Part shown: one piece after another, positions 34,915-53,801 of the stretch
Numbering within the stretch: the first letter of the stretch is position 1
How the letters are laid out: each line of letters opens with the position of its first letter
DNA from: Halichondria panicea
Taxonomy: Eukaryota; Porifera; Demospongiae; Suberitida; Halichondriidae
Reading direction: 5' to 3'
Length of the DNA stretch: 64,000 bases
Assembly: GCF_963675165.1 (NCBI RefSeq)
Contig: NC_087381.1
Location: 186,001 to 250,000, forward strand
The notes under the pieces: model-generated
Databases searched by the model: none
What the model saw: the letters and a program-made list of their open reading frames with translations, nothing else
Told to the model about the DNA's origin: nothing
Made by a program: the position numbers and the translations under genes

Positions 34915-36402
34915 ATGTACAGCATAAAGATGGGCTCGAATGTGAAATTCTGTATCTCTCAAATAGCCTTTGTGCTACTGACAATTTCAATGTTTGGAGG
35001 TCTATCCTTTGCTGTGTGGAATCTGAAATCTGAGAATGCAAACCTACAGAACCAAATCTCTGAATTGCGAGGCTTTGTCGGAGCTAATCCAAACCCCCAC
35101 TCGAGTGATGAAGCCACGGTGATGGACACACTAAAGCGACTAACTCGACAATCCAGCTCCTCTCAAAGTGCTACTGATCTACTTGCTGATGCTCTGGCAG
35201 AACTAATTGAAAAGAAACTCTACACTATAATGGACTGTGCTAGAGATGACGCTGATAATTTAACCGACTGTTCGCTCAAGCCAGGCCCAAAGGGGGACAA
35301 GGGATGCCTGGGTGATCAAGGTAAAGAAGGCCCTCAGGGAATGAACGGAGAACCTGGGGTCAAAGGACACAACGGTTACCCTGGTCATAAAGGGGAGGTG
35401 GGTCCAAAGGGTCCTATCGGCGATCTCGGCCCAATGGGGCACCGAGGGGTTAAAGGAGATATGGGCGAGATCGGTCAACGAGGCGAGGCCGGGGTTAAAG
35501 GTGACGAAGGTATGAAAGGAGAATATGGTTTCCCTGGACACAAAGGCGAGAGTGGCGGGCCGGGTGCCAAGGGAGTTAAAGGAGATCGAGGCTTTGGAGG
35601 CAATAATGGACAAAAGGGAGAGAAAGGAATGACGGGAGTGCAAGGTCCACCGGGACCTATTCCCACCACACAACCACCAACTACTGAAGCCATGACTACA
35701 CAACCACCAACTGTTCCCTCTGAGAGGTGTGGTGGTCCTGGATGGAGGAAGGTGGCATTCATTGATATGACTAATACTAGCCAAAACTGCCCTCAAGGAC
35801 TAACACTGACTGGCTACTCAAAACGATCATGTGGTCGAACACATGCAACTTCATGGAATTGTTCATCAGTCACCTTTCCTGTTGGTGGTGGTCAATACAG
35901 TCGAGTGTGTGGGAGAGCTAAGGCTTATCAATATGGTGTCCTGGCGTCATTTTATGGGTATCACAATTCACGTGGTATCAATGCAGTGTACGTTGCTGGA
36001 CTAAGCTTCACTCATGGAACACCCAGGACACACATTTGGACATTTGCAGCTGGTTACTATCAAGGAATCAGTGGTGATAGTAGCTTTAGAAACTATCGCT
36101 GTCCTTGTAACCCAGGCAACAGCATCGGCTCTCCTCCTTTTGTTGGTAATGACTATTTCTGTGAGAGTGGCGTAAGCTCTCGTTCTGCAGTTACTCCTTA
36201 CATGCTTCACCCTGATGATCCACTCTGGGATGGTCAGGGCTGTATCCATGGCAACACATGCTGTCAGTTGAACAACCCACCGTGGTTTAATAAAACACTA
36301 CCAACCCCCACAACTGATGATATTGAAATGAGACTATGTATGAGTAGTAGTGCTAGATCTGCTAACATAGCTCTTGAACAAATGGAACTATACGTCTACT
36401 GA
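34915..36402 (+). CDS. Transmembrane collagen-like protein with variable C-terminal domain, C2
   Basis: An intronless frame of 495 codons. I prefer the second Met (34930, MGSNVKF), since it aligns with the MDSN starts of C1 and C3. Order: very short N-tail; hydrophobic anchor ([19 protein letters not shown]); short coiled coil (ENANLQNQISELRG); KRLTRQ, a minimal furin-type R-x-x-R site; a conserved [19 protein letters not shown] block; a rod of roughly 40 Gly-X-Y triplets with many GxKGE/GDKG units; one TTQPPTT linker unit; then a Cys-rich domain from CGGPGWRKVAF to the stop. Layout parallels type II transmembrane collagens, so a shed or membrane-anchored extracellular trimer is likely (inference). 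Variable islands: THATSWNC, YGVLASFYGYHN, YQGISGDSSFRNYRC, VTPYMLHP, SSSARSA. It lies within the DPP pseudogene's intron 4, antisense. Confidence 0.85.
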   Translation: MYSIKMGSNVKFCISQIAFVLLTISMFGGLSFAVWNLKSENANLQNQISELRGFVGANPNPHSSDEATVMDTLKRLTRQSSSSQSATDLLADALAELIEKKLYTIMDCARDDADNLTDCSLKPGPKGDKGCLGDQGKEGPQGMNGEPGVKGHNGYPGHKGEVGPKGPIGDLGPMGHRGVKGDMGEIGQRGEAGVKGDEGMKGEYGFPGHKGESGGPGAKGVKGDRGFGGNNGQKGEKGMTGVQGPPGPIPTTQPPTTEAMTTQPPTVPSERCGGPGWRKVAFIDMTNTSQNCPQGLTLTGYSKRSCGRTHATSWNCSSVTFPVGGGQYSRVCGRAKAYQYGVLASFYGYHNSRGINAVYVAGLSFTHGTPRTHIWTFAAGYYQGISGDSSFRNYRCPCNPGNSIGSPPFVGNDYFCESGVSSRSAVTPYMLHPDDPLWDGQGCIHGNTCCQLNNPPWFNKTLPTPTTDDIEMRLCMSSSARSANIALEQMELYVY

Positions 36403-36829
36403 TGAACTAGACACTGAACATTGATCTGGCTACTGATTTACATCGTACAATTATATAAGCTGTAGTTTATTGATCAATGGTATGAACAATGAATTTGTGT
36501 GTTAGATAAATAATTTATTAAGCTGAAGGCATACATTCAAGCCTGCCATGTCACCATCAGGGACCTGATTGATGTCAAATCACAGGTCAGATCACATATT
36601 ATCACATATTATAGAGTTCATACCGATACAGTTGCATTGCAGGACTCGTTGGAGGCATTGGATCCCCTGTTTAAGGACGTTGGTATGCAATGCAGGTAAA
36701 AGTAGTCAAGCTAAGGTCGCTTCATTCGTGGTCCAGTATTCAACCACACAAATGATAAGACATCAAATGCACCACAACATAACTTAGAAACCCCAGAGAT
36801 AAGATATTAAATAAGAGGTCACGGCACCA

Positions 36830-51700: not shown

Positions 51701-53801
51701 AGGCCCTCAGGGAATAAACGGAGAACCTGGGGTCAAAGGACACATTGGCTACCCTGGTCATAAAGGGGAGGTGGGTCCAAAGGGTCCAATTGGCGATCCC
51801 GGCCCAATGGGGCACCGAGGGGTTAAAGGAGATATGGGTGAAATCGGTCAACGAGGTGAGGCGGGGGTTAAAGGTGACGAAGGTATGAAAGGAGAATATG
51901 GTTTCCCTGGACACAAAGGCGAGAGTGGCGGGCCGGGTGCCAAGGGGGTTAAAGGAGATCGAGGCTTTGGAGGCAATAATGGACAAAAGGGAGAGAAAGG
52001 AATGACGGGGGAACAAGGTTCACCGGGACCTATTCCCACCACACAACCACCAACTACTGGAGCAGTGACTACACAACCACCAACTACTGGAGCAATGACC
52101 ACACAACCACCAACTGTTCCCTCTGAGAGGTGCGGTGGTCCTGGATGGAGGAAGGTGGCATTCATTGATATGACTAATACTAGCCAAAACTGCCCTCAAG
52201 GACTAACACTGACTGGCTACTCAAAACGATCATGTGGTCGAACACATACAAATAGTGACGATTGTTCATCAGTCACCTTTCCTGTTGGTGGGGGTCAATA
52301 CAGTCGAGTGTGTGGGAGAGCTAAGGCTTATCACTATGGGTACCTGTTGTCCTTTTATGGGTATAACCGTGACTCACGTGGTAACAATGCACAGTACGTT
52401 GATGGACTAAGCTTCACTCATGGAACACCCAGGACACACATTTGGACATTTGCAGCTGGTTTATATCAAGCAAACATTAGTAATATTGATACTGTACGTA
52501 GATACTATAACTGTCCTTGTAACCCAGGCAACACCTACGGCTCCCCTCCTTTTGTTGGTAATGACTATTTCTGTGAGAGTGGCGCAAGCTCTCGTTCTGC
52601 AATTGGACGTAACATATTTCACCCTGATGATCCACTCTGGGATGGTCAGGGCTGTATCCATGGCAACCCGTGCTGTTCGTTGAACAATCCACCGTGGTTT
52701 AACCAAACACTACCAACCCCCACAACTGATGATATTGAAATGAGACTATGTATGGTTCAATTGGTATCTAGTGGTAACATAGCTCTTGAACAAATGGAAC
52801 TATACGTCTACTGACGAACTAGAGACACTGAACATTGATCTGACTCTGTTAGCTACTGAATATTAGATGTACATAATTATGTACTTGTCAAGATAATTTA
52901 TTACCATATTACTGTGTACAGTATTACTTGCGAGCATCAAACATATGCAAACTTTGCGATGGTTGATAAATTCAGTCATTTGCGGGAAAATGGGAAATTT
53001 ATGTTGCAAATTTAAGAGTTAATAATACTATTTTAAAGAGCTTCTTTTAAACTTTCAGAAAATCAGAAAATCATTGAAATTGCAACACAAGTTATGGCCG
53101 TTCAAAGATGCCATATACACCAGACACAGTCTCACGCAATTATTAAGTCAATTTGTAAATGTGCAGGCCACCTCTTTATTACAGCCACCATTGGCTGCAG
53201 CTAGTTTATATACCTATTCCAAAGTTTCTCCGTGCTGACAGATAGGTCCTGAAGGCATTGTCTTGCAGTGTGGGCTTGCGTACCTTGGGTGTGGTCACTA
53301 CCTTCTCCATCTTGGCCAAATGGTTGATGAGGTTTTGAGGATCGAAAGCCAATACCTTCAGTCAAGGGTATAGCAGTAGAATAATAATAATTAATATCAA
53401 GTTAACAATTAAAAACAAATTTTCGTTTTGAAAGGCTATAAATTTCCTCCCCCCACACACACCCCCCACACCGCCCACACCACACAACACCTGTATTGAT
53501 GAGTCCTCGGGGCTCACGGAGACTGTGCGTACTTGTAGGGGCACACCTCCACTCTGGGATGGAGTGGGCGGGAGCTCGGGTGTGTTGGAGAGAATCGTAC
53601 GCGCTGTCTCACCATCCACACACCGATCCAGCGACCCTGTCATGTGATCAGTCATGTGACATCATAATTACATAGTGATTGACCACACCCACCAGTTTCA
53701 ATCTGCCACACGTAGAGTTTCCCGTCTACACAGTGAACCAATAGAAAGTCTTCTTCCAAACGCCATCTGTAGGCAGCTCGTTAAAAACAGTTACTTTGCG
53801 T

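Follow-up and report, generated by a model that had tools for sequence, protein, structure and literature searches.

A family of genes in the sponge Halichondria panicea encodes predicted transmembrane collagens whose Cys-rich C-terminal domain consists of a framework, shown to be constrained, and five to six short islands for which the codon rates support diversifying selection. The reading that we favor, with somewhat more confidence than doubt, is that they act in recognition as trimers, either on the membrane or shed from it, with loops diversified in the germline.

Genes of the window and the wider family

The window is the whole 64,000-nucleotide stretch analyzed here (contig C5:186001-250000), and the genome searched comprises 131 Mb in 39 contigs. 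As reported in the preliminary description, the window contains four intact genes that are open from ATG to stop, one frameshifted gene composed of two overlapping ORFs (27596-28273 and 28201-29046), and truncated copies, and the framework blocks quoted in that description are found in the window genes. Genes C2 to C5 each have a single exon with one open frame of 495-516 amino acids, and gene C1 retains an open C-terminal domain despite its frameshift. The features are listed below, with the islands of gene C2 placed by codon rates and column variability.

27596-29046, + strand: gene C1, frameshift in the collagen part; C-terminal domain open at 28369-29043
33199-33321, + strand: fragment matching the N-terminal 40 residues
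34915-36402, + strand: gene C2, intact, 495 aa
34963-35019, + strand: C2 membrane-anchor-like segment, residues 17-35 (mean Kyte-Doolittle 2.04)
35137-35148, + strand: C2 RLTR, a minimal furin-type site (RXXR)
35284-35661, + strand: C2 collagen, 42 uninterrupted Gly-X-Y triplets
35719-36399, + strand: C2 Cys-rich C-terminal domain
35851-35859, + strand: C2 island 1, after SCG
35932-35955, + strand: C2 island 2a, after RAKAY
35965-35973, + strand: C2 island 2b
36055-36096, + strand: C2 island 3, after WTFAAG, also varying in length
36172-36213, + strand: C2 island 4, after CESG
36334-36363, + strand: C2 island 5, after RLC
36891-38441, + strand: gene C3, intact, 516 aa; C-terminal domain 37755-38438
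40165-40335, + strand: fragment matching residues 34-90 (stalk)
40450-41994, + strand: gene C4, intact, 514 aa; C-terminal domain 41311-41991
51279-52814, + strand: gene C5, intact, 511 aa; C-terminal domain 52122-52811

Twelve full-length genes, the four in the window and eight from other places on contig C5, share one architecture. Close to the N-terminus lies a hydrophobic, anchor-like segment; an RLTR motif is present; the collagen runs for 42-44 Gly-X-Y triplets without a break; and the C-terminal domain contains 12-13 Cys residues. Nine Cys are invariant among 30 aligned domain copies. The stalk resembles a coiled coil as judged by eye. The anchor-like segment and collagen in all twelve agree with the earlier designation of these products as transmembrane collagens, to the extent that a membrane anchor can be predicted from sequence. 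The suggestion that they are surface or shed proteins would fit the anchor-like segment, and RLTR, present throughout, is a putative shedding site at which the rest of the protein could be released. A Pfam scan of two window proteins gave collagen as the sole significant match. In the window proteins searched, neither an SRCR nor a C-type lectin domain was matched up to E=10, and COLFI was not matched either.

The family is real, but it is far larger than the preliminary description saw. A protein search using a divergent copy as query gives at least 152 domain matches genome-wide, about 95 of which, by a hand count among the matches listed, are near-complete and open. The window subfamily forms arrays at contig C5:214-239k, 434-474k, and 577-581k; further copies are scattered over the same contig, at 1240k, 2328k, 2402k, 2444k, and 6255k, and new copies arise by tandem duplication. 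Of the 29 domain copies that we read, smaller fragments excluded, 15 are intact and 11 broken or truncated members of the window type, and three belong to a divergent subfamily; of 40 more that we fetched, 36 have an open domain. Three subfamilies can be distinguished: the collagen-bearing window type; a contig C15/C1 type, in which Thr/Ser-rich repeats precede the domain in two of the copies inspected; and a large type, several copies of which have an anchor-like segment and stalk, and in which a piece matches the fibrillar-collagen C-propeptide (COLFI, PF01410) over its first ~70 positions. The sister genes carrying this N-terminal COLFI fragment fused to the family C-terminal domain, an unusual fusion, lie at contigs C2:6816-6822k, C5:880-1363k, C13:4411-4620k, and elsewhere. 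At contig C15:5528-5531k, locus L025 has hundreds of residues of near-identical Thr/Ser-rich repeats before the domain, within a frame of 1472 aa.

Framework and islands of the C-terminal domain

The five islands described previously were recovered as six stretches of variable columns, the site after RAKAY counting as two, together with four lone sites; the stretches occupy reference positions 42-44, 69-76, 80-82, 110-123, 149-162, and 203-212. Among the 15 intact window-type domains nucleotide distance averages 0.039-0.045 over the two halves of the framework versus 0.30-0.56 in the six islands, residues differ between copy pairs at a median of 72% of island codons and 10% of framework codons, and every one of the 15 has a distinct island sequence. 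The contrast is more than chance: islands delimited in one array retain it in the other (pN 0.41-0.45, versus 0.04-0.065 in the framework). The framework had been called almost identical in DNA, which is true away from the islands (pS 0.05-0.07) but not beside them (0.19-0.26), and pS within the islands reaches 0.26-0.42. Tyr is enriched in the islands (12.7% versus 5.0%), Arg, Ala, and Asn are also abundant, and Cys is nearly absent, a composition often like that of contact surfaces. An AlphaFold2 model of five window domains was too poor for use (pLDDT 41.6), and a Foldseek search of the PDB with this low-pLDDT domain model gave no matches at E<=0.001.

Codon-aligned dN/dS by site, which the preliminary description had named as a check on its proposal of diversifying selection, was estimated with an MG94-type codon model using a grid of synonymous (alpha) and nonsynonymous (beta) rates and empirical Bayes, in sets that include 46 of the 51 aligned copies, with five excluded. 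In the window type (15 copies) omega is 1.04, and 28 of 225 domain sites have beta>alpha at P>0.9, with 15 of them above 0.99; at p<0.05 a grid likelihood-ratio test scores ten sites as positive and 18 as negative. The contig C15 type (seven copies) has an omega of 1.21 with 30 of 223 sites flagged at P>0.9, but just two by likelihood ratio, and the large type (24 copies) has an omega of 0.41 with nine of 219 flagged. The fast sites of the contig C15 type lie at columns equivalent to those of the window type, and column rates correlate across the three subfamilies (Spearman 0.47-0.49), showing that the same places vary in separate lines. Across the twelve full-length genes the flagged sites are concentrated in the domain (29/226), with none in the stalk (0/125) and one in the collagen (1/128).

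Neutral islands were simulated at rates of 1, 6, and 10, with six runs of each. Rate 1 produced no flagged site, rate 6 never more than two, and rate 10 an average of 3.3 with a maximum of 20; in none of the 18 runs did any site exceed P>0.99, versus the 15 observed. When restricted to gap-free columns the analysis flags 19 of 212 sites, 12 of them above 0.99; a star tree flags 50; and separate trees for five segments flag 31, only three of which exceed 0.99. The synonymous rate is itself about doubled at island sites (1.77 versus 0.88), an elevation that is not fully explained, and the nonsynonymous rate there is 6.40.

Recent duplicates, chosen by eye, provide a clock in the DNA outside the open frame. 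The islands are more diverged than this outside DNA in seven of nine pairs, with the reverse in two. In the other subfamilies eight pairs have some alignable outside DNA, and the islands exceed it in seven; pair L025/L028 was excluded from the count, its flank not being alignable. L030 and L031 differ by 14.2% in the islands, versus 3.3% and 2.7% outside and 1.6% in the framework, and L049 and L058 are 17% different in the islands with nearly identical downstream DNA (0.2%). L038/L042 is marginal (10.3% versus 9.1% over 33 outside bases), and L036/L039 shows the reverse (0.7% versus 4.4% and 3.3%). The window-type pair at 2402k and 2444k is also contrary, with no differences in 126 island bases and 11 in 561 framework bases. 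These mixed outcomes suggest that rapid island divergence, proceeding by accumulation, is the rule in most lines but not in all, and the second contrary pair slightly lowers our confidence in the recognition reading. The proposal of diversifying selection on the islands is nonetheless supported by the codon rates, the simulations, the robustness checks, and most of the recent duplicates.

Sources of variation and alternative explanations

Gene conversion probably keeps the framework uniform, to judge from comparisons of coding and flanking DNA. Fourfold sites in the framework are 0-13% different over 45 gene pairs, and the upstream flanks, alignable over ~700 bases in three of the 45, are 9-27% different with gaps counted; many flanks cease to align within 30-60 bases of the ORF. 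The closeness of the framework relative to the flanks, and the loss of alignment near the ORF, suggest either conversion within ORFs or codon constraint. The conversion proposed in the preliminary description thus has this indirect support for the framework, but a PHI-type test detected no recombination (p 0.42-0.98), and these values gave no support for a clean mosaic of swapped islands. Distance matrices seldom correlate from one island to another (one of 15 pairs at p<0.05), a result compatible with saturation or reassortment. The majority bases at variable island positions are T 22, C 22, A 19, and G 15; no adenine bias was found there, which argues against retroelement-type mutagenesis, and a diversity-generating retroelement target, with variation confined to template adenines, was rejected.

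Four other explanations bear on the same observations. The proteins could be structural short-chain (spongin-type) collagens of the matrix or skeleton, with purifying selection on the framework and neutral, unconstrained loops; a short collagen with a Cys-rich domain at its C-terminal end agrees with the short-chain collagens described in passages of PMC5395295, and pairwise counting gives an island pN/pS of just 1.1-1.6. We consider this unlikely, given that neutral islands simulated at rates 1 and 6 yield zero to two flagged sites versus 28 observed, that islands outpace the DNA outside the gene in seven of nine recent pairs, and that the proteins have an anchor-like segment. It is also quite unlikely that the islands are simply old, with gene conversion having homogenized the framework and skipped them so that ancient differences persist without present diversifying selection. 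Framework fourfold sites are indeed closer than the ~700-base flanks in all three pairs, synonymous divergence is raised beside the islands, and L049/L058 look as if the domain had been replaced; but neutrality predicts synonymous change as high as nonsynonymous, whereas the two rates are estimated at 1.77 and 6.40; codons that stay conserved within islands, for example the Ser TCA at column 84 (15/15), would need very short conversion tracts; and recent pairs such as L030/L031 have already diverged by 14% in the islands versus 3% outside.

The islands could instead be copy-specific labels for adhesion or self-identity, through homophilic binding or allorecognition, rather than sensors of microbes. 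No two of the 15 intact copies share an island set, and arrays of similar membrane proteins would suit combinatorial labels; no adhesion-type Pfam domain was found in the window proteins searched, however, microbe sensing is expected to give the same pattern, and we assign this explanation little weight. Targeted hypermutation with little selection, whether by an adenine-directed mutator of the retroelement type or by another local one, would account for variation that is sharply local and for the raised synonymous change, but is highly improbable: adenine is not overrepresented at variable positions, no site passes P>0.99 in the neutral simulations at rates 6 and 10, and the recent duplicates at 2402k and 2444k are identical at all compared island bases.

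The favored reading, of recognition proteins with germline-diversified loops, can be put in mechanistic terms. The build would be that of a membrane collectin or class A scavenger receptor, with a short tail in the cytoplasm, a single membrane anchor, a stalk, collagen, and a Cys-rich binding domain, and a collagen of this length should force trimers. Tandem duplication supplies the copies, gene conversion or codon constraint would hold the framework alike, and the short stretches under apparent diversifying selection would probably form an exposed ligand-binding face, three per trimer. Cleavage at RLTR could release the ectodomain. The ligand would most likely itself be variable, such as microbial surfaces or the cells of another individual.

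Relatives of the domain and possible function

Short-chain collagens are reportedly a multigene family in sponges, as the title of a 1991 work by Exposito has it, and a 2006 work by Aouacheria is said to be a source on the spongin short-chain collagens. We take the cnidarian and bivalve proteins called 'short-chain collagen C4' to bear this very domain. That label is applied to cnidarian or bivalve genes in portions of PMC6626399, PMC4581086, and PMC13093298. Passages of PMC5395295 attribute to sponges, cnidarians, and other invertebrates short collagens that carry an NC1-type domain, name the NC1 of collagen IV as a relative, and give the short-chain domain ten conserved Cys (seven common to collagen IV and three of its own) and no HSQ; excerpts of PMC5867623, PMC4704026, and PMC12549020 are similar. 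The window proteins likewise have a short Gly-X-Y stretch and then a Cys-rich C-terminal domain. Visual inspection of some of the domains revealed no HSQ, and nine Cys are invariant in 30 aligned copies, versus the ten published. The window proteins differ from the spongin short-chain collagens, as described, in their N-terminal anchor-like segment and diversifying islands. By these published descriptions the short-chain (spongin) collagens are the likeliest nearest known kin of the domain.

Other candidates were rejected. The domain resembles collagen IV NC1 (Pfam C4, PF01413) in being C-terminal, Cys-rich, and preceded by collagen, but PF01413 has no match to the window family at E<=1, and its two matches in the genome are at one locus. 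This locus, at contig C9:6766511-6766849 (L023, L024), is above the cut-off and adjoins Gly-X-Y sequence; demosponges lack collagen IV according to the passages of PMC5395295. Fibrillar collagen identity was set aside since the full COLFI was not found and the family domain itself has no match, the first ~70 COLFI positions lying just before the domain in the sister subfamily and being absent from the window genes. Profiles of 14 and 30 copies (A1 and A3) have no matches to PDB chains up to E=10, and a profile of the sister subfamily with its upstream piece (A4) matches the collagen III C-propeptide over that piece only. Pfam on the domain gave chance-level matches only, as did NCBIfam (two matches); pattern scans gave six matches in GTDB genomes and 11 in IMG/VR, none a relative, and the family sequence motif has no occurrence in the literature text searched.

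Class A scavenger receptors of the MARCO/SCARA type and membrane collectins have a type II anchor, a stalk, collagen, and a C-terminal globular domain. The window proteins share this plan with a type II-like anchor, and differ in having no SRCR or C-type lectin match and in forming a large tandem family with fast islands. Hydractinia Alr, a colonial allorecognition gene, encodes a fast-diversifying surface protein with polymorphism tied to fusion or rejection. Botryllus fuhc, as excerpts of the literature present it, is likewise a fast-diversifying surface protein with polymorphism tied to fusion or rejection. The window family, read from one assembly, would resemble both in encoding putative surface proteins that diversify fast. 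Portions of PMC10855680 report 296 SRCR genes in a sponge, and the SRCR immune receptors of sponges and sea urchins described there are, like the window family, large and partly tandem putative recognition families; the window family is distinguished by another domain, a near-frozen framework, and discrete islands. In passages of PMC5450542, a work on sponge grafting, collagen is named once, as a barrier.

Few receptors are known for the discrimination of self, non-self, and symbionts in sponges and other early animals, and a tandem family with measurable diversifying selection provides candidate genes and candidate contact residues. The family also suggests that a domain probably classed with the matrix collagens may serve in recognition, in phyla whose transcripts commonly bear the label 'short-chain collagen C4'. 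In the literature searched, which leaves out most subscription journals, this pattern is not described for short-chain or sponge collagens in connection with selection, immunity, hypervariability, or allorecognition. A broader proposal, possible although we lean against it, is that, early in animal evolution, a domain of the short-chain-collagen type became a germline recognition repertoire spread over the genome, its near-frozen framework kept uniform by gene conversion and five or six loops diversified in each copy, for discriminating microbes or for allorecognition without antibodies.

Several neighboring features were recorded. A tandem repeat with several open frames (33363-34119) lies directly upstream of gene C2, and the array neighbors in the window include an ORF with a protein-kinase domain (21129-22091) and an ORF with leucine-rich repeats (1089-1703). 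Fibrinogen_C gave only weak partial matches (best E 0.046). A second dense array, with ~25 fibrinogen-C (PF00147) matches on one strand, is present at contig C6:4161-4210k.
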